Positions 2,347 to 23,091 of a stretch of 64,000 nucleotides of DNA are shown in pieces. How positions within the stretch are numbered: position 1 is the stretch's first letter; each line of letters opens with the position of its first letter. Under the pieces are notes generated by a model, which saw only the letters and a list, made by a program, of their open reading frames with translations, was not told the origin of the DNA and made no database searches. Origin of the DNA: Streptomyces sp. 6-11-2 (GTDB lineage: Bacteria; Actinomycetota; Actinomycetes; Streptomycetales; Streptomycetaceae); contig NZ_BJOR01000001.1 of assembly GCF_006540305.1 (NCBI RefSeq), positions 6,944,001 through 7,008,000 of the forward strand, read 5' to 3'. The translations under genes and the position numbers were made by a program.

Positions 2347-2350
2347 CCTA

Positions 2351-2538: not shown

Positions 2539-2678
2539 CAGTTGTGCTGTGACCGGAAAGGTTCACCGCGGCGAGAGTGACGGTCCCCTGTTGTGGCGCT
2601 GGAACGTCCCTCAACAGCTGGTCTACGACTGGCCGATGGGATGTGCGAGGTTCAGGATCAGGTGGTGACCCATCGCTC

Positions 2679-3672: not shown

Positions 3673-4401
3673 ATAACCCTCTGCCAAGGCCAAGTAACCG
3701 TGGTGCTCCTCAGCACAGACGAGGCTGCGGCCGCCATCGGGACGGAGCGAGGTCCGCGTCAAGACCCTCAACCTGGCTCCGTCATTGCACCCGACATCGA
3801 CCAACAACGACAGAAGCCCACGGCGTCCGAGCTGGTCAGAGCCGTGGGCTTCTTCTGTCCTGCTGGTCAGCCGGACCGCTGGACCGACCCCAGCACTGCT
3901 GGGTTACGGACTATGTGCGCTCGTGGCACTTCTATGCCGTCGCGCCACTCGCTCCAACCGTGACGAACCGTCTCAGGCCGTGTGCGAGAGGATGATGGCT
4001 GTGGTGAGTTCCTTGCTGGTTGCTGGTCGTCAGATGGTGGCCGGCATCTGTGAAGGCATCGTTGGCGCGGCCTGCTTCGCCTTGACGACGGGTGCAGCAG
4101 TACCGGGCTGAGTCCAGCGTTTTCATATGCTCCCCGACATCCATTGGTCATTCACGGAGTCGATCAACGATGGGATTGAGCCAACGTCGGGCCCCGGCCG
4201 GAGCCGTCGTCATCTGGGGCCGCATCAGGCAACGTTCGCCCTGTCGACCACGGCTTGTAGCCGCTCGTCGCTCGCGTGGCGCACAGCGGTGGACCGGGCA
4301 GCGACGGCGTCCGGTACGCGAGTGCCGCGGCGACCTGGCCGCGCTCGTCGTGGCTGGCCTCCTCCGGGTCGGCGCACCGGGTCAGGCATCGGGCGTGGGA
4401 C
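3673..4401. other. Gene-poor stretch between lipoprotein gene and transposase remnant
   Basis: No convincing gene. Short frames on both strands have no recognisable products. The stretch holds the hairpin listed at 3809-3860. Its right part (about 4160-4401) runs up to the break point of the truncated IS630 transposase, so it is probably unrelated DNA joined there by a deletion or insertion. Confidence 0.4.
3809..3860. terminator. Long hairpin, probable terminator
   Basis: ACAGAAGCCCACGGC is followed after 16 bases by GCCGTGGGCTTCTTCTGT, a near-perfect stem with one 3-base bulge. It lies about 140 bases past the lipoprotein stop and has no U-tract, as is common for actinomycete terminators. 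Confidence 0.55.
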
Positions 4402-4701
4402 GATGACCTGCTCGACGTCGGCGTCGGTGATCTTCCGCGGGACCCCGGGCCGCGGCTCGTCGGACAGGCCGTCCAGGCCGCGTTCGAGGAACCGGCGCCG
4501 CCACGTGCGGACCGAGTCCGGAGAGATGCGCAGCCGGCGGGACACCTCCATGATCGAGTGCCCGTCGGCGCACTCCAGCACGATCCGCGACCGTTGAGCC
4601 AGGGCCTGGGCCGTCGTGCGGCGACGCACCCAGCCCTCCAGCACGGCCCGCTGGGCATCGGTCAACGACAACGGCGGAATCTTCGGACCCGGACGACTCA
4701 T
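4402..4701 (-). pseudogene. Truncated IS630-family transposase (N-terminal part)
   Basis: From ATG 4701 leftward the frame gives an IS630-type start (MSRPGPKIPPLSLTDAQRAV). A helix-turn-helix and the hinge LDGLSDEPRPG follow, then ITDADVEQVIV. After about 100 residues the similarity stops near 4402. The frame runs on to 4225 with Arg/Pro-rich, non-homologous sequence, and the whole DDE catalytic half is missing. Only one transposon end could survive, on the right side before 4736. An intact but different IS630 element begins 36 bases beyond its start codon. Confidence 0.8.
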
Positions 4702-4737
4702 ACCGAACCAACGGCAAATCTCCGACTCAGGTCACTA

Positions 4738-6158
4738 GTGTGATGCGCCTGAAATGGTGGCTCTAAGTCTGTAGGCTAATTTCATGGCGTCTCGGGGTCC
4801 TCGTGCAGTCGAAGTCGTGCTGTCTGCCGAGGAGCGTGCGGAGTTGGCACGTTGGGCGGGTGGCGCGGTGTCGGCCCGTGTGGCGGAGCGGGCCCGGATC
4901 ATTCTGGCCTGTGCGGAAGGTGTCTCAAATACCGGTGTAGCAGCGGACTTCGGGGTATCCACGGAGACAGTGCGCAAGTGGCGCTCGCGATTCGTAGCCC
5001 GGCGGATGGCTGGCCTGGTGGACGAGCCGCGGCCGGGCCGGCGCAAGCCGGAGCTGGTGCTTTCCGAGGCCGAGCGGGCAGAGCTGACGCGCTGGGCGCG
5101 GCGGGCCAAGACCGCGCAGTTCCTGGCGCTGCGGGCGAGGATCGTGCTGCGGTGCGCGGAAGGCGGGTCGAACAAGGAGGTCGCCGCCGAACTCGGTGTG
5201 TCGCACGGAACGGTTAACCGCTGGCGGTCGAGGTTCATCCGCTTGAGGCTGGACGGGCTGAGCGATGAGCCGCGTCCCGGCAGGCCGCCCTCGATTCTGC
5301 TGGACCAGGTCGAGGATGTGCTCACGGCGACGTTGGAGTCCACCCCGGGCAAGGACACGCACTGGTCGCGGGCCTCGATGGCGAAGCACTCTGGGCTGTC
5401 GAAGTCCACCATCGGGCGGATCTGGAAGAGGTTCGACCTCAAGCCTCATCTCCAGGACGCGTTCAAGCTCTCCACCGACCCGCAGTTCATCGCGAAGGTC
5501 GTCGACGTCGTCGGCCTGTATCACCATCCGCCCGAGAAAGCGGTAGTGCTGTGCGTGGACGAGAAGAGCCAAATCCAGGCGCTGGACCGGTCTCAGCCGG
5601 TGCTGCCGATGATGCCGGGCATGCCCGAGCGGCGCACCCACGATTACTACCGCCACGGCATCACCAGTCTGTTCGCTGCCTTCAACATCGCCGATGGCAG
5701 CGTCATATCGGAGCTGCACCGCCGTCACCGGGCCATCGAGTTCAAGAAGTTCCTTGTCACGATCGACAAGGCCGTGCCCGCCAGCCTCGACGTCCACCTG
5801 GTCTGTGACAATTACGCCACCCACAACACCGCCGAGATCAAGACGTGGCTCGGAAAACACCCCCGCTTCCACGTCCACTTCACCCCCACCGGCTCCTCGT
5901 GGATGAACCAGGTCGAGCGGTGGTTCGGCCTGCTGACGGACAAGCTCATCCGCCGCGGCGTGCACACCTCCGTGAAGGCACTGGAGCAAGACATCAGGGC
6001 CTGGATCGACTCATGGAACGAGAACCCCAGGCCCTTCACCTGGACCAAGACCGCCGACGAGATCCTCAACTCCCTCGCCGACTACCTCACCAAGGTCACT
6101 CCGCCAGCCACCGAGAACCAGCGAGAGACTTAAGGTTGTGATTTCGGGCGCATCACAC
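4738..6158 (+). mobile_element. Intact IS630-family insertion sequence, 1421 bp
   Basis: Terminal inverted repeats start GTGTGATGCGCC at 4738 and as the reverse complement ending at 6158. Further matches run into GAAAT and TAAGTCT. Both ends are flanked by TA (4736-4737 and 6159-6160), the duplication expected for the IS630/Tc1-mariner group. One full-length transposase gene fills the element. It lies between the IS630 remnant and the FAD oxidoreductase gene. Confidence 0.9.
4784..6133 (+). CDS. IS630-family transposase with duplicated N-terminal HTH domain
   Basis: 449 residues, about 90 longer than usual for this family. The extra length is an N-terminal duplication: residues ~11-88 and ~91-168 are two related helix-turn-helix/hinge modules, each running from LSxxERAEL to DEPRPGR (WRSRFVARRMAGLVDEPRPG and WRSRFIRLRLDGLSDEPRPG). 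The catalytic part follows, with DDE-type residues in CVDEKSQIQ, LVCDNYATHN and SWMNQVERWF. The frame is open and the element ends are intact, so it may be active. The two modules have diverged, so the duplication is not brand new. Confidence 0.92.
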   Translation: MASRGPRAVEVVLSAEERAELARWAGGAVSARVAERARIILACAEGVSNTGVAADFGVSTETVRKWRSRFVARRMAGLVDEPRPGRRKPELVLSEAERAELTRWARRAKTAQFLALRARIVLRCAEGGSNKEVAAELGVSHGTVNRWRSRFIRLRLDGLSDEPRPGRPPSILLDQVEDVLTATLESTPGKDTHWSRASMAKHSGLSKSTIGRIWKRFDLKPHLQDAFKLSTDPQFIAKVVDVVGLYHHPPEKAVVLCVDEKSQIQALDRSQPVLPMMPGMPERRTHDYYRHGITSLFAAFNIADGSVISELHRRHRAIEFKKFLVTIDKAVPASLDVHLVCDNYATHNTAEIKTWLGKHPRFHVHFTPTGSSWMNQVERWFGLLTDKLIRRGVHTSVKALEQDIRAWIDSWNENPRPFTWTKTADEILNSLADYLTKVTPPATENQRET

Positions 6159-6230: not shown

Positions 6231-7799
6231 ATGAGCGCACACGAGGGACACGGGACGTACGACGTCGTCATCGTCGGCGGCGGGCACAACGGACTGGTCG
6301 CCGCCGCCTACCTGGCCCGGGCCGGACGGTCGGTGCTCGTGCTGGAGCGGCTGGACCACACCGGGGGCGCCGCCGTCTCCACCCGGCCGTTCGCCGGCGT
6401 GGACGCACGGCTGTCCCGCTACTCCTACCTGGTCAGCCTGCTGCCCCGGAAGATCGTCCAGGACCTGGGCCTGGACTTCCGGCTGCGTACCCGCACGATC
6501 TCCTCGTACACGCCCGTCGAACGCGCGGGGCGGCCCACCGGACTGCTCGTGGGCGGCGGCGAGGAGCGGACCCGCGAGGCGTTCGCCCGGCTCACCGGCT
6601 CCGACCGCGAGTGGGAGGCCTGGCAGTGCTTCTACGCAATGACCGGCCGCCTCGCCCGCAGGGTCTTCCCCACGCTCACCGAGCCGCTGCCCACCCGCGA
6701 GGAACTGCGCCGCCGCGTCGACGACGAGGATGCCTGGCGGATCCTGTTCGAGGAGCCGATCGGCGTCGCCGTCGAGGACCGCTTCGCCGACGACCTCGTA
6801 CGCGGAGTGGTCCTCACCGACGCCCTCATCGGCACCTTCGCCGACGCCCACGACCCGTCCCTGGCACAGAACCGCTGCTTCCTGTACCACGTGATCGGCG
6901 GCGGCACCGGCGACTGGGACGTACCGGTCGGCGGCATGGGTGCCCTGACCGATGCCCTCGCCGCCGCGGCCCGCCGGGCCGGCGCCGTCATCGCCACCGG
7001 CCACGAGGTGGCCCGGGTGGCGAGCGACGGGCGCGCCGCGGAGGTCACGTACCGTACCCGCGACGGCGAGGCCACCGTCGGCGCCCGGCACGTGCTGGTG
7101 AACGCCTCCCCGCAGGTCCTGGCCGCGCTGACCGGCGAGGAGCCGCCGGAGCCCGCCGAGGGCGCCCAGCTGAAGGTGAACATGCTGCTCAAGCGGCTGC
7201 CCAGGCTCCGCGACACCGCCGTCGACCCGCGCGAGGCCTTCGCCGGGACCTTCCACATCGCCGAGGGGTACCGGCAGCTCGCCGACGCCCACGCGCGGGC
7301 CGCCGCGGGCGAGCTGCCCGCCGCGCCGCCCTCCGAGATCTACTGCCACTCCCTGACCGACCCGACCATCCTCGGCCCCGACCTGATCGAACAGGGCTAC
7401 CAGACGCTCACCCTGTTCGGCCTGCACACGCCCGCCCGGCTCTTCGCCCGGGACAACGACGCCGTACGCGGGGAGCTGCTGCAGTCGACCCTCGCGCAGC
7501 TCGACGCGCACCTCGCCGAACCGCTCGCCGACTGCCTGGCCACCGACGCCGACGGACGGCCCTGCATCGAGGCGAAGACCCCGCTGGACCTGGAGCGGGA
7601 CCTGGGCCTGCCCGGCGGCAACATCTTCCACCGGGCGTTGAGCTGGCCATACGCCCAGGAGGGCACCGGCCGCTGGGGCGTGGAGACCCGGCACGCCAAC
7701 GTGCTGCTGTGCGGCGCGGGCGCGGTGCGCGGCGGCGGGGTCAGCGGAGTGCCCGGGCACAACGCCGCCATGGCGGTGCTCGAAGGCCGGGACGCCTGA
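6231..7799 (+). CDS. FAD-dependent oxidoreductase, phytoene desaturase/PYROXD2-like
   Basis: 522 residues from ATG 6231, chosen for the AAGGAC site seven to eight bases upstream. The N-terminal dinucleotide fold VVIVGGGHNGLVAAAYLARAG and VLVLERLDHTGG mark an FAD-binding amine-oxidase/phytoene-desaturase-type enzyme. The C-terminal FAD contact LLCGAGAVRGGGVSGVPGHN is typical of the PYROXD2-like subgroup. Substrate unknown. No carotenoid genes adjoin it, so a carotenoid role is not supported. It converges on the kinase gene that ends at 7933. Confidence 0.85.
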   Translation: MSAHEGHGTYDVVIVGGGHNGLVAAAYLARAGRSVLVLERLDHTGGAAVSTRPFAGVDARLSRYSYLVSLLPRKIVQDLGLDFRLRTRTISSYTPVERAGRPTGLLVGGGEERTREAFARLTGSDREWEAWQCFYAMTGRLARRVFPTLTEPLPTREELRRRVDDEDAWRILFEEPIGVAVEDRFADDLVRGVVLTDALIGTFADAHDPSLAQNRCFLYHVIGGGTGDWDVPVGGMGALTDALAAAARRAGAVIATGHEVARVASDGRAAEVTYRTRDGEATVGARHVLVNASPQVLAALTGEEPPEPAEGAQLKVNMLLKRLPRLRDTAVDPREAFAGTFHIAEGYRQLADAHARAAAGELPAAPPSEIYCHSLTDPTILGPDLIEQGYQTLTLFGLHTPARLFARDNDAVRGELLQSTLAQLDAHLAEPLADCLATDADGRPCIEAKTPLDLERDLGLPGGNIFHRALSWPYAQEGTGRWGVETRHANVLLCGAGAVRGGGVSGVPGHNAAMAVLEGRDA

Positions 7800-7932
7800 G
7801 GACGCGGCGCCCCTCGCCCTCGCACACCCGGTGCGGTGGGGACCGGCGCTTCCGCGTCCCCGCCCGGTGGAGAGCGGCGTCCCGTGCCCCGCACCGTGGA
7901 GACCCGCTCCCGCACACCCGCACCCCCCTCCG

Positions 7933-9894
7933 CTACCGGACCATGGTGGTGTTCGCCGCCGCGGCGGGCAGTGTGTGCAGGGTTCCGCCGGACGAGGCGG
8001 CGTGAACGCTGCGGCCACCGGGGGAGCAGGCCGTGGCCAGGATCTGGCCGCCGAGGTCGAAGCTCTGCAGCGACGCCCCGTCCGCCGCGTCCAGCAGATG
8101 CAGCCGGCCGCTCCAGCCGCCCGCGTACACCGCGGCCCCGTCGGAGCACAGCGCGAAGAACTCCTCCCGCTCCCCGTGGTGCGCGCGCCAGACCGGCTCG
8201 CCGGCCGCGGCGCCCAGGCAGTGGACCGTGCCCGCGACGTCCCCGACGATCACCGTGTCGAGCACCCGGACCGGCGGGGCCACCACCGGCGCGCCGAGCC
8301 GGACCTCCCACACGGCGGAGCCGTCGGCGGCCGCCAGGCACCGCACCGTTCCCTCCCCGTCCGCGACCACCAGGTGCTCCTCCCACGGCAGCGGCGGTGC
8401 CAGGACCGGGGCCGGCAGCCGTGCGGGCGCCTTCCAGGCCAGGGCGCCGTCCTCGTCGTCGACGGCGAGGATCTCCGCGCCCCGCTCGGCCGACAGGTAC
8501 ACGTGCCGGGCGCCGGCGACCACCGGGACGGCCGGGGCGCCCGACGTGTCGGTGAGGGGGTCGGTCTCCCACCACAGCCGGCGGGTGACCGCGTCGAAGT
8601 GGTGCAGCCGGCCGGTCACGTCGCCGAGGAACACGCTCCGCCCGCGCAGCAGCACCCGGGCATGGGCGAGGCTGCCGGTGGCCGAGGACCACCACAGGCG
8701 GTGCTGCCGGATGTCCCAGGACTCCAGCCGGCCGTCGGCGTCGCACACCAGCAGCACGTCGCCGTCCGCGCACAACTGCACCGGAGCGGTGAAGTCCGGC
8801 CTGCGGACCTTCTCCCGGCCCGTGGCCGCGTCCAGCCAGCGCACCGCGCCGCCGCCGTCGGCCACGACCACCCCGTCCTCCTCGGTGGCCACGACGCACT
8901 GCGGCCACTCCCCGACGTCGGCGCTCCAGCTGCGCCGTCCCGGACGGAACGGCACGGTCAGATCGGCGGCGTTGCCCGCCCCGGCCAGGAAGTCCCGCAG
9001 TTCCGCGCGGTAGGCGGTCAGGGTGCGGCCCACGTCCTCCGGCAGCCGCAGCGCGCCCGGCCGGCCGAAGCCGTCGGCGACCTCGTCCAGCCGGGGGCGG
9101 TCGGCCGGATCCTCGGCCAGACAGGCGCGGATCAGCCGGCCCGTGGTGTCGTCCGGCAGCCCGGACAGGTCGGGCGCGGCCCCGCTGACCCGGCGCACCA
9201 GCATGGCCCGGGCGTCGTTCTCGGCCGTGTACGGCGGGTGGCCGGTGAGGGCGTACAGGACGATGCCGGCGATGCCGAAGACGTCGGTCGCGAGCCCGGT
9301 CCTGGCCAGCCCCCGCACCTGCTCGGGGGCGCAGAAGTGCGGGTGGCCGATGACCATGTCGAGGGTGAGCGTGACCCGCTGGCCGCGGATCCGGGTCAGC
9401 CCGAAGTCGATGATCCACGGACCGTCGTGGGTCAGCAGGATGTTCCCCGGGTGCAGGTCCCGGTGCAGCAGCCCCTTGCGGTGCGCGGTGCCGAGGGTGT
9501 CGAGGAGTTCGGCGGCGAGCGTGTGCACCGTGTCGCGGGGCAGCGGGCCGCCGTGCTCCTCCACGACCCGGTACAGCGACAGGCCGGGGATGAAGCGGGT
9601 GGCCAGCGTGGGCCGCCGCCCGGCGCCGAAGTCGAGCGCGAGCAGTTCGGGGATGCGCGCGCCCCTGCAGCGCTCAAGCGCCTTGCTCTCCTGGTGGAAG
9701 CGCTGCATGTGCTGGGCGTCGTCGGTGAACTCGTGTTTGAGGAGCTTCACGGCCGCCAGCGTGTCCGGGCCGTGCCGTTCACCCGGCCGCCGGCCGAGGT
9801 AGACCGTGCCGAACCCGCCCGTGCCCAGTCTGCCCAGCAGCCGGAAACCGGCGGCCTCCGGCGGATCGCCGTCCGCATCCAGCGGCATCACCAT
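7933..9894 (-). CDS. Serine/threonine protein kinase with C-terminal PQQ-like beta-propeller
   Basis: 653 residues. Start taken at ATG 9894, seven bases after AAGGA; ATG 9888 is possible. The kinase domain covers about residues 15-270: glycine loop LGTGGFGTVYLG, lysine in AAVKLLK, catalytic HRDLHPGNILL, metal-binding DFGL and a HPHFCAPEQ activation segment. The C-terminal half has repeated WxxD and LDAATG-type blades of a PQQ/WD-like propeller. No membrane helix is seen, so it is probably cytosolic. It is last in a minus-strand run with VWA, GAP1 and GTPase genes, 49 bases after the VWA gene. The propeller could sense a ligand or dock partners. Confidence 0.9.
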   Translation of the reverse strand: MVMPLDADGDPPEAAGFRLLGRLGTGGFGTVYLGRRPGERHGPDTLAAVKLLKHEFTDDAQHMQRFHQESKALERCRGARIPELLALDFGAGRRPTLATRFIPGLSLYRVVEEHGGPLPRDTVHTLAAELLDTLGTAHRKGLLHRDLHPGNILLTHDGPWIIDFGLTRIRGQRVTLTLDMVIGHPHFCAPEQVRGLARTGLATDVFGIAGIVLYALTGHPPYTAENDARAMLVRRVSGAAPDLSGLPDDTTGRLIRACLAEDPADRPRLDEVADGFGRPGALRLPEDVGRTLTAYRAELRDFLAGAGNAADLTVPFRPGRRSWSADVGEWPQCVVATEEDGVVVADGGGAVRWLDAATGREKVRRPDFTAPVQLCADGDVLLVCDADGRLESWDIRQHRLWWSSATGSLAHARVLLRGRSVFLGDVTGRLHHFDAVTRRLWWETDPLTDTSGAPAVPVVAGARHVYLSAERGAEILAVDDEDGALAWKAPARLPAPVLAPPLPWEEHLVVADGEGTVRCLAAADGSAVWEVRLGAPVVAPPVRVLDTVIVGDVAGTVHCLGAAAGEPVWRAHHGEREEFFALCSDGAAVYAGGWSGRLHLLDAADGASLQSFDLGGQILATACSPGGRSVHAASSGGTLHTLPAAAANTTMVR

Positions 9895-9943
9895 GTCCAC
9901 GTCCTTTCTCCGGGCCGCTCCGTGGCGCCCGGCTGGGAGGGGG

Positions 9944-11536
9944 TCACTGAAGGACGACCGCCTCGTTCTCCGTCGCGTGGGAGAAGCCGATGCCGCACAG
10001 CACGGTGGACTTGCCCAGCTCGCAGGTGCCGGTGTCGCGCAGCCGCTCCCCGCCCGCGCGCGGGGCGTCGCGTTCGCACCGCACGACGAGGACCGGGCGT
10101 CCGGCCTCCTGCCGGCCGCGTACGGTGACCCTGGCCCGCACCTGCCCGGCGTCCGTCTCCTGGGTGACCTCCCGGCCGTGCAGCGGGATCGTCCGGCGGT
10201 TCCCGGTCCGCAGGTCGGTGACAACCAGGAACCCGCTCAGCTCGGGGTTGCGCCGCCGGTGGACGTGCCAGACGAGGGCGGAGCCCAGCAGCAGGACGAG
10301 CAGCACGAGGGGGTAGAGCCAGCCGGGCGGGCGGCCGGGCACCGTGCCCCGCAGGTCCAGCGCGGTGACGACCGGCTCGCCGGTGGAGAACGTCGACTCG
10401 CCGAGGGAGCCGCGGACCGTCGTCGTCCACGCCGAGGAGACCTCGGCGCGCAGACCCACCCGCGCCTGGAAGTCGCGGGAGCCGGGGACGAGGCTGAACC
10501 GGGGCTCCTGACGCCAGGTCAGCGTCATCGGCACGGTCTTCTTCTCACCCGGACGCAGGGTGACGGGAGCGGTCGGCCCGGCCGGGGTCGACCGCGGACC
10601 GCCGGCGCTCCCGGTGGTCGTCAGCCGGACGGTCAGCGGCACGTGCCGGGCTTTCGACTCCAGCGTCACCCGCAGCGTCCGGGAGCGGACACCGGTACGG
10701 TCCCCGGTGCCCACGGTGACGTGTTCGCCACCCGCCCCGCGCACCCCCTCGCCGGCGACCGACACGGTGACCGTGCCGCCCTGGTCGGCGCGGAGCAGGG
10801 ACACCGCCTTCTGCGCGCGGACCTGGTCCTTGGCGGCGCTGAGCTGCGAGCCGAGGGCCGTGGGGTCGACCGGCAGGATCCTCGGGGCGCCGAAGGCGTT
10901 GCCGAGGACGTCGGAGACCCCGGTGCCCTCGGCGAGCGGAAGCCCGTAGCCCATGATCTTGCGGTCCGCGCCCAGCGCGGCGTAGCGCGACTTCAGCCGC
11001 TGCCAGGCCGTGCTGCCCGGACGGGCGTAAGGGCTGCCCGGCGCGTTGACGGCGCCGTCGGTGAGCATCAGCACCGCGCCGACCGGGGCCGCGCTGTGGT
11101 CGAGCTGGTCGGCGGCGGCGTCCAGCGCGGCGCCGTGGTCGCTCGCCGACTCCTTGGCGGACTGGGGGAGTTCCCTGGTGAACAGGCCGTCCGTGCGGTT
11201 CGCCGGGGACATCGGGTGGACGACGCCGGTCGCCCGGCCGAAGGTGACGACGGCGACCTGGTCGGCGGGCGTCAGCGAGTCGAGGAAGTCGGCCAGGCGC
11301 CGCTTGACCGTGGTGTAGAGCGGTACGCCGTCGGGGCCCCGGTCCTGCATGGAGCTGGAGACGTCGACGAGGACGACGTAGGCCGCCGGGACGTCGTCGA
11401 CCTTCAGCGCGCGGTAGATGTCGTCGCGCGGCGCCGGTGGGTCCGCGGCCGCGGCGGGCGCCGCGCCGCTCAGAGCCAGCAGGAAGGTAAGGGTGAGCAG
11501 CGCGGCTCGGTGGGCCGTGGCCCGGGTGGTGGGCAT
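9944..11536 (-). CDS. Membrane-anchored VWA-domain protein
   Basis: 530 residues. A signal peptide (residues 1-30, ending PAAAA) precedes a VWA domain (about 50-225) with an intact MIDAS: VDVSSSM, then LMLTDGAVN. Beta-rich domains follow. One transmembrane helix near 405-425 (YPLVLLVLLLGSALVW) is followed by HRRR and a cytosolic tail of about 100 residues with conserved-looking CELGKSTVLCGIGF near the end. It would display a metal-dependent ligand-binding domain outside and a tail inside. It lies between GAP1 (46-base gap) and the kinase (49-base gap), which suggests one transcription unit. Confidence 0.88.
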   Translation of the reverse strand: MPTTRATAHRAALLTLTFLLALSGAAPAAAADPPAPRDDIYRALKVDDVPAAYVVLVDVSSSMQDRGPDGVPLYTTVKRRLADFLDSLTPADQVAVVTFGRATGVVHPMSPANRTDGLFTRELPQSAKESASDHGAALDAAADQLDHSAAPVGAVLMLTDGAVNAPGSPYARPGSTAWQRLKSRYAALGADRKIMGYGLPLAEGTGVSDVLGNAFGAPRILPVDPTALGSQLSAAKDQVRAQKAVSLLRADQGGTVTVSVAGEGVRGAGGEHVTVGTGDRTGVRSRTLRVTLESKARHVPLTVRLTTTGSAGGPRSTPAGPTAPVTLRPGEKKTVPMTLTWRQEPRFSLVPGSRDFQARVGLRAEVSSAWTTTVRGSLGESTFSTGEPVVTALDLRGTVPGRPPGWLYPLVLLVLLLGSALVWHVHRRRNPELSGFLVVTDLRTGNRRTIPLHGREVTQETDAGQVRARVTVRGRQEAGRPVLVVRCERDAPRAGGERLRDTGTCELGKSTVLCGIGFSHATENEAVVLQ

Positions 11537-11582
11537 GAGGTGGCGTCCCCCTGGGGTCGTGCGTGGTGGGGTCGTGCGTCGT

Positions 11583-14183
11583 TCAGGTACGGGTGCGGGC
11601 GGCGAGGGAGTCGAGCTTGCGCAGCCGGGCGATCTCCCGGTCGCACTGCCGGCTCTGCCGGTCGAGTTCGTCCTTCAGGCGTGCCTGCCTGCCGATCGCG
11701 TGATCGCGGTAGTGCGACCAGATCCGGTGGCCCGTACTGCCCCGGATGAGGGCGAGTTCCAGGTGCTCGCGCTCCTCGGCGGCGCGGCCGGTCGCGTCGT
11801 ACGAGGTCCAGGCCAGCTCGTACGCCTCGAGCAGGGCGAGGACGCGTTCGCCGACGCGTCCGTGGGCGGCCCAGGTCTGCAGGGCCGCGGCGAGCTGGTC
11901 GTTCTCCGCGCCCGTTCGTCGTGCCGCGCAGGCCTGCACGGCCAGCTTCTCGCAGTCCTCCGGGATGCCCGAGCAGCGCGCCGCCAGGCGGTAGACCTCG
12001 CGCAGGGCGATCACGGGCCGCAGCCGGGGCAGGCGGTCGGCGATGCGCGGGAGCCACCGCTGGTCCTCGGGCGTCTCGCGCCAGTGCGGCGCCTCGGTGG
12101 CGAGCCGGTGCACGGCGTCGAGGACGATCCGCGGGCAGGGGTCGGGCCAGTCCGACAGGCGCAGGGTGAGGTCGCGGCCGGCCTGTCCCGGACCGGCACC
12201 GGTGGTCCTGTCGACCGACAGGGCCTGGTCGAGCAGGAGGTGGACCACAGTGGTCGCGTGCTGCTGCGCGGGGCGTGGGTGGAGCGCCGCCCGCAGGGCC
12301 GAGACATAGGTGTCGACCCGCCCCGAGGGGCCCGCGGCGCCGGGCTGCGGCGCCGCGGCGGCCAGGGTGAGGAAGCCCGACGGAGGCAGGCCGGCCAGGA
12401 GGCACAGCACGTCCCAGTGGGCCGCGGTCTCCGGCCGCATCCGGGCGGGCGGCCGGTCCAGAGTGCGCCGGAGCGGCGAGTGGGTCGGGGCGTCGTCCGC
12501 CGTGGAGGGGGAGCGGAGTACACAGCCGAGGAGCCCCTGGAAGAAGCCGGGCAGCAGGACTTCGTCGACGGCTCCGCAGACGACCGCGCCCTCCAGCAGA
12601 CGTGCAGCCGCCTCGGGGTGGCCCACGGCCCACTTCCTGTCGGCCTCGGCCGGTCCGGTGCCGGAACGCAACAGGGCGTACAGCAGCGGGAGTTCCGGGC
12701 TGCCTGCGATGTCCGTCCGGCGTTCGGGCCCGGCTTCACCGCACAGCCACCGCAGCCAGGCGCGGACGAGGACGCCCGGGTCGGTCTGTTCGTACAGGGC
12801 CCGGACCAGGCCGCCCGCCAGGCCGGGGACCTGACGCAGCATGGACTGCGTGAAGCGCATGGTGCCCTCGGTGAACGGAGCGACGGCGGGCAGCAGCCGC
12901 TCGGTCACGGGATCCGGCACGCCCTGCGGGCAGCGGGCCCGGACCTCGTCCATGACGCCGGCCAGGACCTCGTCCAGGGGATCCAGGCTCCGCCCGGTGG
13001 AGGTGAGGGCGGCGCGCATGTTCTCGAAGTCGCGGCGGGCCACGTCCGTCCGCCCGTGCAGCAGATCGTCGAAGAGCTGGTCGCGGAAGGCCTGGGAGAC
13101 GACGGGGCTCGACATCAGGGGCGCCAGGGCCTCCATTCCGGTGTCCGGGTCCGTCAGTGCCTTCCCCGCGAGGACGGCGAGCGCTCCGGTGCTGATCCCG
13201 GGCGTGCGCAGGGCCTGGTTGATCCGGTCGGCGCCCACCTCCTGGCCCTCGGAGACGGCCTGGACGACCGCCAGCGAGGGGTCCAGGGCCTCCAGTACCT
13301 CCAGCGCCCGCGCGTGCGCCTCGGGCCCCGAGATGTCCAACGGCTCGCGGGCGTCGGCCAGATGCCGGACGACGGCGTCGCCGCCGTGCGCGGTCCAGTT
13401 CTCGATGAGCAGATCGTGGTAGCTGCGCGCCTGCGGGGACAGCTCGCCGAGATCGGGCAGTTCGCCGCTCAGGGTCAGGCCGGTCACCCCGGGGGAGCCG
13501 TCGGCGTCACCCCAGTACAGCCGCATGGGCACCTCGGAGCCCGAGGACGTCGAGCTGGCCGCGGACAGGGTGCTGCGCATGCCGAAGGGCAGCAGGGCGG
13601 CCACGGAGTCCAGGACGCGCAGCAGTTGGAACGGCTCGTGGTGGCGGTCGCCCGTCACCGCCACCGGGCCGTCCAGCAGATGGGCCGCGGCGGCCGCCAG
13701 CCACCGGGTGAGCTCCGAGACCCGGGGGGTGATGTTGGCGCTGACATCGGTGACCAGCAGGTCCTCCTCGTGGAAGGCGAGGTGCGCGGGTCCGGCGCCG
13801 GCGCCGGACAGGCCCGCGGCCGCGGCCGCGGTGTGGGCGGCCCGGGCCAGCGCGCACCAGCCGATGCCCGCCGCCCCGATCGCCGCGTAGGGGACGGCGA
13901 AGTGGTTGATCCGGTGGATCGCACGGTTGCTGCCGTCCACGCCGTCCGTGCCGTCCAGCAGGAAGACCCCGACCGTGCCGGCCCCGTCCGGGCCCCCGGC
14001 GCATCCGATGGTGATCCACGGCAACGGGTCGCCGGGCTCCGGAGTACCCGGCGACCAGTGGTGGACGGCGGCGTTGAACTCGGCGCTGCGGCCGGGCGGG
14101 TGGGCGGCGAGAACCCCGTATCCGCTGCTGGTGTGGGGCTCCTTGCCCCACAGGGCCCAGTCGGCGATCAGCCCCGGTGCCAT
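11583..14183 (-). CDS. GTPase-associated protein 1 (GAP1)-like protein
   Basis: 866 residues from ATG 14183 with AAGGA six bases upstream. The N-terminal ~250 residues (from IADWALWGKEPHTSSGYGVLAA) resemble the N-terminal domain of GAP1-related proteins. These were named for consistent linkage to a P-loop GTPase in bacterial loci predicted to act in conflict or signalling. The remainder is mostly alpha-helical. The C-terminus carries charged, coiled-coil-like helices (ARLKDELDRQSRQCDREIA). No signal peptide or catalytic motif is seen. It sits 36 bases after the GTPase gene, as in known GAP1 loci. The family call rests on resemblance and context. Confidence 0.7.
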   Translation of the reverse strand: MAPGLIADWALWGKEPHTSSGYGVLAAHPPGRSAEFNAAVHHWSPGTPEPGDPLPWITIGCAGGPDGAGTVGVFLLDGTDGVDGSNRAIHRINHFAVPYAAIGAAGIGWCALARAAHTAAAAAGLSGAGAGPAHLAFHEEDLLVTDVSANITPRVSELTRWLAAAAAHLLDGPVAVTGDRHHEPFQLLRVLDSVAALLPFGMRSTLSAASSTSSGSEVPMRLYWGDADGSPGVTGLTLSGELPDLGELSPQARSYHDLLIENWTAHGGDAVVRHLADAREPLDISGPEAHARALEVLEALDPSLAVVQAVSEGQEVGADRINQALRTPGISTGALAVLAGKALTDPDTGMEALAPLMSSPVVSQAFRDQLFDDLLHGRTDVARRDFENMRAALTSTGRSLDPLDEVLAGVMDEVRARCPQGVPDPVTERLLPAVAPFTEGTMRFTQSMLRQVPGLAGGLVRALYEQTDPGVLVRAWLRWLCGEAGPERRTDIAGSPELPLLYALLRSGTGPAEADRKWAVGHPEAAARLLEGAVVCGAVDEVLLPGFFQGLLGCVLRSPSTADDAPTHSPLRRTLDRPPARMRPETAAHWDVLCLLAGLPPSGFLTLAAAAPQPGAAGPSGRVDTYVSALRAALHPRPAQQHATTVVHLLLDQALSVDRTTGAGPGQAGRDLTLRLSDWPDPCPRIVLDAVHRLATEAPHWRETPEDQRWLPRIADRLPRLRPVIALREVYRLAARCSGIPEDCEKLAVQACAARRTGAENDQLAAALQTWAAHGRVGERVLALLEAYELAWTSYDATGRAAEEREHLELALIRGSTGHRIWSHYRDHAIGRQARLKDELDRQSRQCDREIARLRKLDSLAARTRT

Positions 14184-14219
14184 GGCGTGTCCTTCCTCAT
14201 GCGGGTGTTCGGTGCCGGA

Positions 14220-15635
14220 TCAGGACTGCGTCGGGCCGAAGCCCCGCAGGAAGAGGAACGGTTCGAGGACGTTGACGGGCCTGGGCGGCGCCACGAAGCG
14301 CACGCTGTCCTCGACGTGGTTGATCAGGTACGGGTTCTCGAAGTCGAACCCCCGCTCGGGGTCGACCCAGAAACCGACGGCGGAGCAGACGAAGTAGCCG
14401 ACGCGCTCGGGTGCGAAGAACTGCTCGATCTGCTGCCGGATCTCGTGCAGGCTGCCGTGCGGGAACGCGTGGCACAACCCGTCGAACAGCCGCTTGGCGT
14501 CCATGACCTCGGGTTGTCCGGTACGGGGGTTGACCCGGACGTTGCCCTGCTCGCAGGCGAAGCGGAAGACCCGGTCGTCGTCGAACTTCGCCAGGCACAC
14601 GGCGATGCTGTGCGGCAGGAAGTTGCCCTGGCGCTCACGGCGCATGTTGATCTCGGTGGCCACCCCGCCGAGGACGTCGGTGAAGAAGTCCGCGTTCTGC
14701 CGGGCGTCCTTGGTCACCGGTCCGTCGTCGCCGTTGACCTGCCACTCGCGGACGGGATCGACCACGTAGACCATGGCCCGCGAGGCGCCGAGGTCCTTGA
14801 TCAGCCTGCTTCCGTAGGCGGCCCCGGTCTGCGAGCGCAGGTCGAACGCCTCCCCGGGCAGGTCGCGGACGGTGACCTTGAACTCCGTCAGGTCGCGTCC
14901 GCGGTCGCCGCCGCGCCGGAAGAGTCTGCGTCCGGCGCGGGAGAAGCGGGTCCCGGTGAGGTCCCCGGCCAGCGTGAAGCGGACCGGGCGCTGCTCGGTC
15001 AGCGTCGCGTTGGGGAACTTGCGCTCGCGGTACAGGAGACGCGCCAGGTCGCCCAGGAACTTCTGGGAGACGTGGTCGTCCGGATAGATGGTCCACTTTC
15101 CGTACAGCGGGTCCTGAACGGCCCGGGAGAGGGCGGCCAGCAGCGTGGACTTGCCGCTCTGCATACCGCCCCAGAGGGTGATCGTCGACTCGGGCGAGGA
15201 GGTCCGGTCCTCCGGCTCCTGCGGGGCCGCGTCCTGCTTCTCGCGCTGCTCCGCGGCCGCCCCCTTCCGGCCGGACTTGGCGGGCTTGGCGGGTTTGTCG
15301 GCGCGTGCGGGCGCGGCCGGCTCGTCCAGCTTCTCCAGGAAGACGCTGGGCAGCGCCTCGTCCTCCGGCGCGGACCGGGGCGCGGGCGCGGTGGACGGGC
15401 GCGCCCGGTCCTTCCGCGCGCCCGGGTTTCCCGGACGGAGGCGAGGGGGCGCGGTTCCGGTGCCGGCCGCGGAACCGGCGGGCGGGGCGGCGGTCGGCGG
15501 TGGGGGCAGGGCCGCCAGGCCCCCGACGAGGGTGGACCGGCCCAGGACGTCCAACGGCCCCTGCTCCCGGTCCTGTTGCCTGCGGTCCGGTTCGGCTTCC
15601 CGGGCGCGCTCGGACCGCGCGTCGTCGTCGACCAT
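14220..15635 (-). CDS. P-loop GTPase of a GAP1-linked system (TRAFAC/double-GTPase-like)
   Basis: 471 residues from ATG 15635 with GCGGGAG eight bases upstream. Residues 1-150 are a disordered Pro/Ala/Lys-rich tail. The GTPase domain has Walker A GGMQSGKST (156-164) and a switch-II-like motif RDLPGE (257-262). Downstream are VVDPVREW and an AVCLAKFDD segment that may serve as the guanine-specificity motif. No membrane helix. Length and motifs fit the GTPases paired with GAP1. It lies between the degenerate-VWA gene (98-base gap) and the GAP1 gene. A conflict or stress role is inferred from family context only. Confidence 0.8.
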   Translation of the reverse strand: MVDDDARSERAREAEPDRRQQDREQGPLDVLGRSTLVGGLAALPPPPTAAPPAGSAAGTGTAPPRLRPGNPGARKDRARPSTAPAPRSAPEDEALPSVFLEKLDEPAAPARADKPAKPAKSGRKGAAAEQREKQDAAPQEPEDRTSSPESTITLWGGMQSGKSTLLAALSRAVQDPLYGKWTIYPDDHVSQKFLGDLARLLYRERKFPNATLTEQRPVRFTLAGDLTGTRFSRAGRRLFRRGGDRGRDLTEFKVTVRDLPGEAFDLRSQTGAAYGSRLIKDLGASRAMVYVVDPVREWQVNGDDGPVTKDARQNADFFTDVLGGVATEINMRRERQGNFLPHSIAVCLAKFDDDRVFRFACEQGNVRVNPRTGQPEVMDAKRLFDGLCHAFPHGSLHEIRQQIEQFFAPERVGYFVCSAVGFWVDPERGFDFENPYLINHVEDSVRFVAPPRPVNVLEPFLFLRGFGPTQS

Positions 15636-15733
15636 GGATGTGCTCCCGCTTGACGGGCGGCGGATGTCGTCCGCCGCACGGTGGTGGTCCGGTCCGCGCG
15701 TGCGCGCGCACCGGTGTGTGGGTGAGGTCCTCG

Positions 15734-17590
15734 TCAGCCGGCCACGGCGTGCTGCCAGTCGGCGGCCGTGCCGTCGGCGACGACCAGCCGGATCGGCGCG
15801 CCGTCCTGGGGCAGGCACAGCGCGGGTGCGGCGACGGCGGCGGCGATCTGCCGCGGATCGTGCCCCGCGATGAACCGCCCCTCGGTGCCGAACGCGCCCC
15901 AGGCGTGGTCGGCCCAGTACGCCAGGTGGGGTTCGCCCACCAGCTCGTCCATCCAGGCCGGTTCGTCCACGACCGCCACGCAGGCGACGCCCTCGTGGCG
16001 GCGTGCCGCGTCCAGTTCGGCCTGCCAGTCCAGCCGGTCGGGGCAGATGCGTACGGGGGCGCCGCGCCGCAGGACCTGGGGCGGGCGGGCCCGCGGGTGC
16101 GGCGGCCGGGAGCCGACGACGAGCAGCACCCGGTGGCTGTCGGTGCGCCACTGGTGGCGCCACCCGGGCAGTTCCCCGGGCACGTGCTCCAGCCCGGTGG
16201 CGAAGTCGTGCCGCAGGGGGCAGGGGCGCCAGGACTCCAGCGCCCGTGCCGCGTCCGGCGCCGCCGACATCCCCACCCGGTGCACGACGGGGTCGTGGTC
16301 GCGAGGCCGGTGGAGCGGGTCGTGGTCGCGGTAGCCGATCAGGCCCACCCGGAGCGTGTCCTCGCCGCCGACGGCGTCCTGTACGGCGGTGACGACGGCC
16401 GCGGCCTCCTGGAGGCGCTCCTCGACCGCGGTGCCCCCGTCGGCCTGCGGACCGGAGACCTCCACGGCGACCATCAGGTCGACCGGGCAGGGCCGGGAGA
16501 GCTGCCGGGGGGTGCTGGAGGCCAGCGCGGTCCAGGGGGAGGTCTCGGGTTCGTGGTGGCCGTCGTAGCCCAGTTCCACCCGGCTTCTTCCACGCAGGGA
16601 GTAGGACAGCGTGGTCCGGGAGCCGGGCGGCAGTTCGAGCCGGTCGATGCGCAGCGAGCGCCACCGGGACGCCGGTTCGTCCCGCCCGGCGGAGACGACG
16701 GCGGCGACGCTCTCGCCGGTGGTCGCGCCGGGCGGCGGCGCGGTGACCGGCACCCGTACGACGGGTCCCGCGGCGGTGCGGTCGTCCGCGCGGCTGCCCG
16801 CGGGGAACAGCGGCCGGCGCACCAGGTCCACCGTCCCCGAGGCGCCGTCGACTTGGGCGGCGGCGAGCCACACCGTGGTGCGCAGCGGCAGTTCGGCCGT
16901 CAGGTCCTCCGGTGCCAGGGGCCAGTGCGCGGGCAGCCGCAGGCACAGCAGCGCGCCCGACTGTGCCCGAACCGCCTCCGCCGCCCGCTCCAGCGGCTGC
17001 CAGCCGGCGGCCCTGACGGCGAGCACGAGCGGCTCCGTCGCGTCGCGGTGCGTGCTCCTCACGAAGGCGGCCAGGGAGCTCCGCAGGGCGGCGCCCACCC
17101 CGGCCGCGGCGTCGTCCGCACCGCCGGCGAGCAGGAACAGGCGGCTCGGCCGCTCCTGCGGGAGCGCCGCGGACACGGGGGCCAGTTCCGTCCAGGACGT
17201 CTCGGCCAGCCGGATCAGCTCCGGACCGGTCGCGCCGGGGGCGTAGGCCAGCCGGTGCAGGCGCAGCCGCTCACAGCCGACCTCCAGGACGTCCAGGGCG
17301 GGGAAGTCGCCGGAGGCGAGGCGGGTGAGCACCCATCCCAGGCCCGCCCGTGACCGCCTGGCACGTTCCTGGGCGAGCACGTCCTCCCAGGCGGACCGCC
17401 AGGCGGGCGGCGGGGCCGCCGCGGGCAGGAGCCGCGCCACCGCGTACCGGTCGGGCGGCGCCGGCCGGTCGCTCCGCTCGCCGTCCTGTTCCGTGTCGCG
17501 CGCGGCGGGCCCGCCGGCCAGCAGGTCCGTGACGCGGAGCGCGGCCCGAAGGTCGGCCGGCCGCACCTTCGCACCGTGGTCCGACTGCAC
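15734..17590 (-). CDS. Large protein with degenerate VWA-like domain, first gene of the GTPase block
   Basis: 618 residues from GTG 17590, preceded by GTGAGG. The N-terminal half is helical and not recognised. Around residues 370-430 a VWA-like fold is suggested by DLMVAVEVSG, then DTLRVGLIGYRDHD, which matches the GYRDH strand of many VWA proteins. The DxSxS metal site is replaced by an ExSxP arrangement, so metal binding is doubtful. The C-terminal part (to QHAVAG) is unassigned. No signal peptide or membrane helix, so probably cytosolic. Being first in the run, it may scaffold the GTPase and GAP1 proteins. Specific function unknown. Confidence 0.65.
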   Translation of the reverse strand: MQSDHGAKVRPADLRAALRVTDLLAGGPAARDTEQDGERSDRPAPPDRYAVARLLPAAAPPPAWRSAWEDVLAQERARRSRAGLGWVLTRLASGDFPALDVLEVGCERLRLHRLAYAPGATGPELIRLAETSWTELAPVSAALPQERPSRLFLLAGGADDAAAGVGAALRSSLAAFVRSTHRDATEPLVLAVRAAGWQPLERAAEAVRAQSGALLCLRLPAHWPLAPEDLTAELPLRTTVWLAAAQVDGASGTVDLVRRPLFPAGSRADDRTAAGPVVRVPVTAPPPGATTGESVAAVVSAGRDEPASRWRSLRIDRLELPPGSRTTLSYSLRGRSRVELGYDGHHEPETSPWTALASSTPRQLSRPCPVDLMVAVEVSGPQADGGTAVEERLQEAAAVVTAVQDAVGGEDTLRVGLIGYRDHDPLHRPRDHDPVVHRVGMSAAPDAARALESWRPCPLRHDFATGLEHVPGELPGWRHQWRTDSHRVLLVVGSRPPHPRARPPQVLRRGAPVRICPDRLDWQAELDAARRHEGVACVAVVDEPAWMDELVGEPHLAYWADHAWGAFGTEGRFIAGHDPRQIAAAVAAPALCLPQDGAPIRLVVADGTAADWQHAVAG

Positions 17591-17947
17591 TGTTCCTCAC
17601 CCCCCGATACGGTCGCCGGCGCCCGCGGGGGCGGCCCGCGACCGCTGTTGCACGTGAATCAGGCATGGAACGGCCCTGACACAGAGGTCACTGAGGCAGC
17701 CACGACTGATCGCAGAACCCGGAATCCCCCATCCGGTTGCGGATTCACATTATCGCCCGCTGTGCGGATGGGACCCGTATTCGTGAGCTTTTATTTCCGT
17801 CGCTTCCGTGCTGGTGGGGGGCTGGAAGGAATCTGAAAGGAACCTGAAAGAAAGGCAGGGGAATGGGGCTTGTCTTTTTCTGTTGTCGACGGTTTTCCGG
17901 GTGCGGGAAAGCTGGAATTGATCGAATTCGACCGGGTGTCGATCTCC
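17591..17947. other. Upstream region of the five-gene GTPase block
   Basis: About 357 bases between the starts and ends of two minus-strand genes. It is locally AT-richer (17,700-17,930, with runs such as CTTTTATTT and GTCTTTTTCTG) than its surroundings, which fits a promoter region for the leftward block. No clear sigma-factor boxes could be assigned with confidence. No gene seen. Confidence 0.4.
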
Positions 17948-19735
17948 TCAGTCCGCGGAGGCCGTCCAGCCCTTCGCCTCGACCCGGGCCGAGTCCGTCG
18001 GGCGCGCCTCGTCGAACAAAACGGCGCGGCCCGTCTCGACCCGCTGGGCGTCGACGTAGGCGCCGCGGCCCACGTACAGGCGGTCGGTCGTGTACCGCCA
18101 GCGCAGGGTCAGCCGTCCGGCCGCCGGGAGACCGGCCGTGAGCCCGTGCCAGACCCGGCCCGAGTAGCCGGTGGCGGTGCCCGTGGGGTGCGGCTCCGGC
18201 TCCTCGCCCCGGCGCGTGGTGGTGAACGGCACCGGCTGCCAGGTGGCGCCCCCGTCCGTCGTGCACTCCAGGACGAGCACGTCCGACCCGGGCTCGGTGT
18301 CCCACCACAGGGCGCACCGCAGCCGGGCGCCGCCCGCGGAGGTGTCGAGCGCGGGAAGGGCCAGAGACGCCGTCGTGGCGCTCGCCATCCCGGAGAACCA
18401 CGCCGTGCGGCCCCGCGTCGGCCGGACCGGTACGGCCCGTGCCAGATCGTTGCCGGTGGCGACGCGCGGAGCGGAGCCGGAACGCCAGTTGCGCACCGGG
18501 TGCACGGAGTTGCCGAGGACGACCAGGAACGAGTCGGTGGTCGGGTCGAGGACCAGCGACGTGCCCGTGAAGCCGGTGTGCCCCGCGGTGCGCGGAGTGG
18601 CCATCGCGCCCATGTACCAGTGCTGGTGGAGCTCGAAGCCCAGGCCGTGCTCGTTGCCGGGAAAGGCGGTGTTGAAGTCGGTGAACATCAGCTCCACCGA
18701 CTCGGGCCGCAGGATGCGGGTGCGCCCGTACGCGCCGCCGTTGAGCAGCGTACGGCCCAGGACCGCGAGGTCCCACGCGCACGAGAACACACCCGCGTGC
18801 CCGGCCACACCGCCGAGGCTGAAGGCGTTCTCGTCGTGCACCTCGCCCCACACCAGACCGCGGTCCAGGCCCGACCAGGGCTTGCGGGCGTCCTCGGTGG
18901 CCGCGATCCGCGGCTTCCAGGAGGCGGGCGGGTTGTAGCGCGTGCGGTCGAGACCCAGCGGCCCGGTGATCCGCTCGTGCAGCAGGGTGTCCAGGGCGCG
19001 CCCGGTGACCGCCTCCAGAACCAGCTGCATGGAGATCATGTTCAGGTCCGAGTACAGGTACGCGGTGCCGGGCGGGTTGATCGGCGCCTCGTTCCAGACG
19101 AGTTCCAGCTTCCGCTCGTACGTCGGCGCGTCGTACAGCGGGATCCAGGCCCGGAATCCCGAGGTGTGGGTGAGGAGTTGGCGGATGGTGACGTCCTGCT
19201 TGCCCGCGCGCCCGAACTCCGGGAGGTACAACGCGACCCTGCCCTCCAGCTCCAGCGTGCCCCGCTCGAGTTCCTGCACCGCGAGCATCGAGGTGAACAG
19301 CTTGGAGACCGAGGCCAGGTCGAAGACGGTGTCCCGGGTCATCGGGATCCGCCGGTCCGCAGGGAACTCCACGGCAGTGTCGGTCTTCTCGTCGTACGCC
19401 GAGTAGCGCACCGCCATGCCGATCGGCTCGTGCAGCGCCACGGTTCCGCCGCGCCCGGCGAGCAGCACGGCACCCGCGTACCAGGGATGTGTGGGGGACG
19501 GGCCGAGGAACGCCTCGGCGTCCTCCACGAGTTGGCGCAGCGGGGCGGCGAGCAGGCCGGCCCGCTCGGGGGATCCGTGCCGCAGGGTGGGGCTGCCGTT
19601 CGCCTGGGCTGCGGCGGCCGGGCCCGCGGGAAGGGCCGCGAGCGCGAAAGCCCCGCCCAACGCCAGTGCCCCCAAACCCAGTTGGCGGCGGGTCAGCCCG
19701 CCCGCTGTTCTGCCTGCCGCGTCGTCGCTCGTCAT
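17948..19735 (-). CDS. Tat-exported serine hydrolase (class C beta-lactamase/esterase family)
   Basis: 595 residues from ATG 19735 with GGGAGG four bases upstream. The N-terminus has a twin-arginine signal (LTRRQLGLGALALGG) and an Ala-rich cleavage region. The beta-lactamase-like domain has the SxxK nucleophile motif SVSK within FDLASVSKLFTS, a YSD motif as second catalytic element, and HTGFTG near the third. The C-terminal ~150 residues are a beta-rich extension, possibly carbohydrate- or wall-binding. It would act outside the cell on esters, peptides or cell-wall material; this fold alone does not imply drug resistance. Two GAAA...TTTC palindromes lie 20-60 bases upstream. Confidence 0.87.
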   Translation of the reverse strand: MTSDDAAGRTAGGLTRRQLGLGALALGGAFALAALPAGPAAAAQANGSPTLRHGSPERAGLLAAPLRQLVEDAEAFLGPSPTHPWYAGAVLLAGRGGTVALHEPIGMAVRYSAYDEKTDTAVEFPADRRIPMTRDTVFDLASVSKLFTSMLAVQELERGTLELEGRVALYLPEFGRAGKQDVTIRQLLTHTSGFRAWIPLYDAPTYERKLELVWNEAPINPPGTAYLYSDLNMISMQLVLEAVTGRALDTLLHERITGPLGLDRTRYNPPASWKPRIAATEDARKPWSGLDRGLVWGEVHDENAFSLGGVAGHAGVFSCAWDLAVLGRTLLNGGAYGRTRILRPESVELMFTDFNTAFPGNEHGLGFELHQHWYMGAMATPRTAGHTGFTGTSLVLDPTTDSFLVVLGNSVHPVRNWRSGSAPRVATGNDLARAVPVRPTRGRTAWFSGMASATTASLALPALDTSAGGARLRCALWWDTEPGSDVLVLECTTDGGATWQPVPFTTTRRGEEPEPHPTGTATGYSGRVWHGLTAGLPAAGRLTLRWRYTTDRLYVGRGAYVDAQRVETGRAVLFDEARPTDSARVEAKGWTASAD

Positions 19736-22359: not shown

Positions 22360-23091
22360 CCGGACACGGACAGGGGGAGTTTCCCTCGTGTTCGGGGACA
22401 GGGGACCTTGAAAGCCCCGCAGGGGCCGGCGGCCGAGCGGCGCCGGGCCCGCGGGGAGGTCGCCATCCGGAGGAGAGGAACTCATGAGCACCCCACCGGT
22501 CGTCGCCGCCGTCGACGGCTCCGACGACAGTCTGCGCGCCCTGGACTGGGCCCTCGACGCCGCCCGGCGGCGCGGGGCGCCCCTGCGGGCGGTACACGTC
22601 CGTCAGTACGCGGCCCTGGCCCAGCCCGACGTCCTCGTCGCCGGACCGCCCGGCGACGACGGCGATCCGGTGCTCGACCTGGCACGCGCCCACCTGGGCG
22701 AGCGCACCTCCGGGACCGAAGTCGAGTACGCCGGTCTTGACGGGCTTCCGGGCGCGCTGTTGCCCGAACTCGGCTCCACCGCCCAGCTGTTGGTACTCGG
22801 CTCACGGGGGCGCGGCGGCTTCGCCAGCCTGCTGCTCGGCTCCAGCAGCCTGGCCGCGGCCCGCGACGCCGCGTGCCCGGTCGTCGTGGTGCCCCGGCCC
22901 GGCCGCGAGGTCCACGGCGAGACGGCGGCCGGCCCGGGGCCACGCGTGGTCGTCGGCGTCAACGTCGACAGCCCCGACGACGCCTTGCTCGACTTCGCCT
23001 TCACGGAGGCCGCCCTGCGCGGGGCCCGGCTCCAAGTGCTCGCCGCCTACCCGTGGCCGCCCCCGGCCTGGGTGGCCCCGGCGGAAGTCAC

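Follow-up and report, generated by a model that had tools for sequence, protein, structure and literature searches.

We analyzed a 64,000-nt stretch of the 8.7-Mb genome of the soil actinomycete Streptomyces sp. 6-11-2 (hereafter the window; window coordinates are those of the whole stretch), in which five genes follow each other on the minus strand from 17590 to 7933. They encode, in order, a degenerate VWA protein (degVWA), a GTPase, a GAP1-like protein, a membrane VWA protein (mVWA), and a Ser/Thr kinase fused to a PQQ-type propeller (Table 1). The genes proved to lie where an earlier note, made from the sequence alone, had placed them: their guanine-plus-cytosine (GC) content by codon position was of the coding type, the gaps between them were 98, 36, 46, and 43–49 bases in order, and no terminator-like site was found in 7500–18200 (mean 1.4 in shuffled sequences). 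The start of the kinase gene at 9894 was taken from comparison with a related locus, L019 (loci are labeled with L-numbers and genomes with G-numbers); the gene caller gave 9900. Since all five genes recur in this order in six further loci, the five behave as one conserved unit, as had been proposed. We give an even chance to the reading that the block is the operon of a widespread, unnamed, GTPase-centric conflict-type system of actinomycetes, made of a constant trio of genes and variable modules.

Table 1. The five genes of the block in the window, listed in their order on the minus strand.
Gene product	Coordinates	Strand	Length (residues)	Remark
degVWA	15734..17590	-	618	first gene of the constant trio
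GTPase	14220..15635	-	471	
GAP1-like protein	11583..14183	-	866	
Membrane VWA (mVWA)	9944..11536	-	530	
Ser/Thr kinase fused to PQQ-type propeller	7933..9894	-	653	

The constant core consists of degVWA, GTPase, and GAP1, and its surroundings are variable. Among 34 loci examined, which were brought in by searches with the GAP1-like protein and degVWA and are hence selected for one of these genes, the trio adjoined on one strand in this fixed order in 27, frequently with 4-base overlaps between neighbors. The earlier note had asked whether relatives keep the genes apart, which is partly so: the trio mostly stays together, whereas the kinase and mVWA genes are exchangeable. The GAP1 gene of L125 had been missed by the gene caller and was found in place by tblastn, and in L015–L018, all from one genus, the mVWA gene precedes the GAP1 gene, which therefore lies one gene further. 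The trio was missing in 2 of the 34 loci, L136 (a weak match without the trio genes) and L058, which retains only a degVWA remnant; this remnant is adjoined by a RES-type gene and a gene of ~227 residues. The loci are spread over the window's family, two more families of its class (f19 and f20), and Actinomadura macra, with three families represented.

The surroundings of the trio fell into several arrangements. Class I, with the order degVWA, GTPase, GAP1, mVWA, and kinase-propeller, comprised seven loci (the window, L011, L020, L048, which is the same as L019, L049, L050, and L051), located between the window's flanking genes in L019/L048, L020, and L049 and elsewhere in L011, L050, and L051; L107, a near copy of L050 (98.5% identical), is on a 678-kb linear plasmid. 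In class II (L053–L056), the trio was surrounded by an unlabeled gene of 440–470 residues, an mVWA gene, a radical-SAM-type gene (Fer4_12, 9e-29 in L054), and a gene of 450–465 residues. The 440–470-residue product presumably starts like an HSP70/actin-type protein, a label that was not confirmed: no Pfam family was found for the L054 copy or the matching L124 gene. Upstream of the trio, L054–L056 carried a RES-type gene (1e-17 by Pfam, L054 only) and a gene of ~227 residues, and L054 also a CHAT gene (7.8e-42), none being seen in L055; these linked genes occupy 12676–17004 in L054. In L012, the kinase-propeller gene stood before the trio. A kinase gene and its neighbor were divergent to the trio in all six f19 loci, the neighbor being DUF4407 by Pfam in L132 (1.4e-82) and by look in the others, and the f20 loci carried AAA genes (Pfam, L124 and L127), radical-SAM-type genes (L124, L127, and L128), and DUF4407 (Pfam, L124). 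Altogether, a gene of the DUF4407 membrane-protein type adjoined the trio in L130–L135, L021, and L124, of which L132 and L124 were tested with Pfam.

In class III (G048, G118, L015–L018, and A. macra), genes for a MoxR-like AAA protein, a ternary vWA protein, and a VMAP protein adjoined the trio. Pfam identified VMAP-C together with a caspase in L018 (1.6e-19) and with trypsin in L021 (1e-39), and a genome search found VMAP-C at matching places in G048, G118, G020, G031, G004, and G038. With A. macra, these make seven relatives that resemble VMAP ternary systems in having the trio beside MoxR-like, vWA, and VMAP-C genes (the MoxR-like AAA was tested with Pfam in L014 and L018 and the propeller in L018, the others with our own profiles); their vWA protein carries a GTPase of the block's clade in three (G048, G118, and A. 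macra), and in four it has a propeller-like part. The window block differs from VMAP ternary systems in that MoxR, VMAP, and ternary vWA genes are all absent from it. Since 17 of the 18 genomes searched carry a VMAP-C gene at some place, including the window genome (only match at C1:3016726, 3.9 Mb from the block), VMAP-type partners may act in trans. The backbone of the GTPase tree supports no class as the ancestral one.

The 471-residue protein is firmly identified as a GTPase by profile comparison, as had been predicted. It has a low-complexity N-terminus, whose region contains no cysteine and hence no zinc ribbon, followed by the motifs GGMQSGKST, DLPG, KFD, and SA, the first of which we take to be Walker A and the others further GTPase motifs. 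Walker A, KxD, and SA are conserved across the family, and DxPG is present in most members and absent in L015–L018. Although the window protein alone yielded only a weak AAA_16 match in Pfam, the family profile matched GTPases adjoining bona fide GAP1-N2 genes (E 1e-18, 276 columns), TM-GTPases of canonical GAP1-N2 loci (E 5e-10), and the GTPase-carrying ternary vWA proteins (E 1.3e-40), with all remaining profiles at E 4e-4 or worse. The DO-GTPase2 profile PF19993 did not match the window GTPase, which was not among the 20 sub-cut-off places of the genome; it matched 5 of 12 members of a GTPase set (A2; best 1.2e-9), and the L054 GTPase exceeded its cut-off (32.3 versus 27 bits). By these comparisons, the window GTPase is a DO-GTPase2 homologue, and its membership in the DO-GTPase2 subfamily is doubtful. 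In the tree, the GTPase clade was split from five canonical DO-GTPase2 relatives with support 100/100, and class I GTPases grouped together on a long stem, again with 100/100; no branching order was supported for the rest. GTPases of the block's clade were carried by the ternary vWA protein in L013/L057 (one gene of G048), L014, and L021. Because the tree separates the vWA-fused GTPases of G048 and G118 from the A. macra one, which groups with its own neighbor (98/92), the GTPase–vWA fusion probably arose at least twice.

The identity of the 866-residue protein is less secure. Three sets of GAP1-like proteins were compared (A1, 13 proteins; A4, 14; A7, 14; A1 and A4 have six in common). The window protein had a lone, weak, unrelated Pfam match (B12-binding_2, 0.15) and none to GAP1-M (PF20014), which was weakly matched by 2/13 A1, 5/14 A4 (best 5.8e-4), and 5/14 A7 proteins (best 0.013; 10 of 28 for A4 and A7 together), counts that come from related sequences and are not independent; the L054 protein scored 16 bits against a cut-off of 24. 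GAP1-M was nevertheless the family matched by most GAP1-like members, VWA families of three fused proteins aside. PF20013 (GAP1-N2) had three sub-cut-off places elsewhere in the window genome and none over the cut-off. Direct homology to bona fide GAP1-N2 proteins was rejected as a basis for the name: profile–profile comparison gave E 0.17 at full length and, in a single comparison of the first 330 residues with GAP1-N2 N-terminal parts, E 0.019, neither significant, and rank tests showed no enrichment of the targets, with 18 target proteins ranked against 535 others in one test (p 0.93) and 17 against 524 in the second (p 0.17), where 4 and 2 of the others, respectively, are true homologues of the query family. 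Of the earlier assignment to GAP1, the weak recurrence of GAP1-M in relatives thus stands, whereas the direct comparison does not bear it out. Because direct tests failed and GAP1-M recurs weakly, we call the protein GAP1-like, a name weakly supported by position and similarity that falls short of a proven GAP1.

In three genomes (L015–L017), GAP1 and mVWA are fused in one protein of 1238–1284 residues with the order GAP1, transmembrane segment, and VWA with DxSxS. The fusion argues that they act together, and its order suggests that GAP1 would lie inside and the VWA outside. The window mVWA matched VWA_2 (3.3e-9, Pfam), has DVSSS at residue 58, and contains hydrophobic segments at 11–29 (signal-like) and 407–425 (transmembrane), in agreement with the proposed surface VWA with a cytosolic tail; the tail of ~105 residues would be cytosolic by this topology.

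A metal-less VWA reading of the 618-residue protein was also supported. The protein is predicted to have a beta-rich middle and a C-terminal VWA fold, in which the DxSxS position of the metal ion–dependent adhesion site reads EVSGP in the window and EVSGP or ELGG in the family. The window protein had no Pfam match. A four-sequence structure model of low confidence (mean pLDDT 44.6) matched 58 PDB chains at E ≤0.001 in Foldseek, and most of the 50 listed were VWA-type by title, including integrin I, Ku, and Rpn10 chains; profile matches to the mVWA family (E 0.0022) and to a VWA-looking PDB protein (E 0.15) were weak. Together, these matches support the VWA reading. A single-sequence model (pLDDT 34) was discarded, and an HSP70 substrate-domain reading of the middle, made by eye, was dropped after no profile match to HSP70-like proteins was obtained. 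CxxC pairs sit on degVWA in L012–L015 and L055. The degVWA gene of L107 is annotated at 14616–15914; tblastn covers residues 1–618 from 14001, so that the annotated start is probably ~600 bases too late. In L020 (7202–8440), the frame starts only at residue ~207.

The last protein was confirmed by Pfam as a Ser/Thr kinase (1.4e-28) with a PQQ_2 propeller (3.7e-34). It carries AAVKLL, HRDLHPGN, IIDFGL, and CAPEQ; HRD and DFG were kept by 7/7 class I kinases, and the kinase Lys pattern was unmatched in L049, L050, and L107. Its architecture is like that of the AfsK-type kinase-propellers of Streptomyces, and AfsK was its best NCBIfam match; unlike AfsK, it scored far below the equivalog cut-off (191 versus 1300 bits) and is located in a GTPase operon. 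PADLOC matches to PD-T4-6 and mad6 come from generic kinase models and were given no weight. The kinase-propellers of the MoxR-associated loci L013 (14387–16396) and L014 (7026–9068) miss DFG by pattern, and that of L013 also HRD; unlike those of class I, they may be pseudokinases.

The system was patchily distributed, being present in 9/150 family genomes, 13/293 order genomes (one a remnant), and 16/296 class genomes (one a weak match), draws that overlap; a plasmid search with degVWA returned one record. The ratio of nonsynonymous to synonymous substitution rates (dN/dS) was estimated for the window against L019, L020, and L049 (degVWA in two pairs, not L020), excluding the non-orthologous window–L049 serine-hydrolase pair (27% identical). 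With NG86, which is crude at high GC, it was 0.52–0.70 for GAP1, 0.40–0.55 for mVWA, 0.32–0.42 for degVWA, 0.26–0.34 for the GTPase, 0.18–0.35 for the kinase-propeller, and 0.09–0.20 for orthologous flanks. YN00 estimates, obtained for the pairs with L019 and for one further pair, were lower, and GAP1 was again highest. GAP1 is thus the fastest-evolving block gene in the comparisons made, residues 601–866 being its least conserved part in 3/3 pairs, and its rate would suit a part exposed to shifting demands, for example a sensor.

Kaur et al. (2020; PMC7159879) described GTPase-centric conflict systems, including the GAP1-N2/DO-GTPase2 kinase theme and VMAP MoxR–vWA ternary systems. In the parts of that paper considered here, zinc ribbons on the GTPase are usual but not universal, the kinase theme usually comes with PP2C, the GAP1-N2 tubulin theme includes membrane-bound vWA proteins, and the MoxR–vWA and DO-GTPase–GAP1 core pairs are reported as not exchanged between systems; these parts contain no degVWA, GAP1–mVWA fusion, or DO-GTPase fused to a VMAP-system vWA. 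The kinship with such systems to which the earlier note had pointed is upheld, and the GTPase is related to double-GTPases (E 1e-18). As in the kinase theme described in those parts, a GAP1-like gene comes after the GTPase gene in the block, there are kinase and vWA genes and a membrane link, and the host is an actinomycete. Unlike GAP1-N2 systems, it opens with degVWA, has its GTPase in a separate clade, and contains no GAP1-N2 domain, FNIII protein, PP2C, TM-GTPase, or GTPase zinc ribbon; tested for the kinase theme, its five proteins showed kinase motifs and vWA and no PP2C. Canonical GAP1-N2 genes were found in 40/147 order genomes, and 7 of 18 canonical loci (L089–L095) had the kinase-theme gene set, judged by position and look, with kinases that read YRD in place of HRD. 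At 8 of the 18 (L096, L098, L099, L101, and L103–L106), no adjoining GTPase gene was found by profile, and these are possible orphan GAP1-N2 genes. As far as the considered parts of PMC7159879 go, the block is best read as a third, so far unnamed and apparently undescribed actinomycete type of GTPase-centric conflict or signaling system.

We favor the conflict-type reading because of the patchy presence, the fast GAP1, and the caspase, CHAT, and RES modules beside the trio in relatives. The block is probably an uncatalogued bacterial immunity or danger-sensing system, and defense or altruistic cell death seems a more likely role than housekeeping. In the proposed mechanism, damage or an invader would be sensed by the surface VWA or by the variable half of the GAP1-like protein, and the signal would cross the membrane to GAP1, a link backed by the GAP1–mVWA fusions, with the inward direction assumed. 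GAP1, with degVWA as a scaffold, would then flip the GTPase, which would release an effector, here the kinase, phosphorylating its targets as output or acting as a modulator. In the effector place, relatives have caspase-like VMAP, CHAT/RES, or DUF4407–kinase genes alongside. The complete sense-and-respond chain of the earlier note is a fair inference. As to its remark that no output protein is obvious, caspase-like VMAP, CHAT/RES, or kinase genes lie beside the trio in some relatives and are plausible outputs.

Several results weigh against this conflict-type reading. At E 1, neither GAP1-N2 (PF20013) nor GAP1-C matched the window protein or any of the A1, A4, and A7 proteins, and in the five block proteins Pfam revealed neither FNIII nor PP2C, nor any nuclease or toxin of known type. 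A phage collection contained no match to the GAP1-like protein, and at the window site the block was inherited together with its flanks in L019, L020, and L049. YN00 values against L019 were lower (GAP1 0.146, flanks 0.018–0.051), no orthologous gene had dN/dS >1, and relaxed constraint would give GAP1 rates that look alike. The shared inheritance, together with the AfsK match, far below cut-off as it is, and the intact catalytic kinase motifs, would also fit a membrane-to-kinase cassette for envelope stress or development, in which an AfsK-like kinase-propeller is read by a surface VWA and the GTPase acts as a switch in polarity or assembly, without a conflict role. We consider such a cassette less likely; the patchy presence, the fast GAP1, and the fact that caspase, CHAT, and RES genes take the place of the adjoining modules in some relatives speak against it.

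The exchangeable neighbors raise the question of whether the block holds two independent units, the trio and an mVWA–kinase pair that travels along but works alone. In 11/12 f19/f20 loci, the search for an mVWA next to the trio found none, and no kinase gene adjoined it in L053–L056, L124, L125, L127, and L128. Nonetheless, mVWA occurs near the trio also in L053–L056, L013, and L015–L018, it is fused to GAP1 in some of these, the order is fixed in 7/7 class I loci, and a kinase gene is divergent to the trio in 6/6 f19 loci, making two units rather improbable. Still less probable, in our view, is that the block is a somewhat diverged kinase theme of GAP1-N2 systems as outlined in the considered parts of PMC7159879: the gene content, the GTPase–GAP1-like order, the actinomycete hosts, and the DO-GTPase2 kinship agree with it, but the GTPase clade stands apart from five canonical ones (100/100), the domains listed above as missing are those of GAP1-N2 systems, and canonical kinase-theme loci (7/18) have YRD rather than HRD kinases.

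We tentatively propose, at somewhat less than an even chance, that a third class of bacterial GTPase switch system, formed by degVWA–GTPase–GAP1, is a portable outside-in trigger, in which a surface VWA coupled or fused to GAP1 senses the exterior, and that it was plugged at least twice into MoxR–vWA systems of caspase or trypsin type via GTPase–vWA fusion. If so, two core switches reported in the considered parts of PMC7159879 as not exchanged would be joined. Relatives of the MoxR–vWA and DO-GTPase–GAP1 cores meet in single operons, GTPase and vWA even in single proteins, and the GAP1–mVWA fusion would offer a concrete route by which a signal at the cell surface could reach a GTPase inside, encoded close to caspase-like, RES, or kinase genes. 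Because 3/5 block genes are labeled "hypothetical protein" in one annotated record, a system of this type is easily overlooked.

The block is flanked upstream by a serine-hydrolase-like gene on the same strand, 357 bases off, and downstream by a convergent FAD-type oxidoreductase gene (both named by sequence look); the named relatives sharing these flanks are Streptomyces. A universal-stress-type gene (300 residues; L019 730–1632) is split in the window into 22484–23215 and 24477–24764, the halves being separated by a 401-residue transposase-like gene of TnpB look at 23226–24431. Two further transposase-like genes, again by look, occupy 1290–6133, between the TPR part of a kinase–TPR gene at the window start and the oxidoreductase gene; in L019, the kinase–TPR and oxidoreductase genes are direct neighbors.

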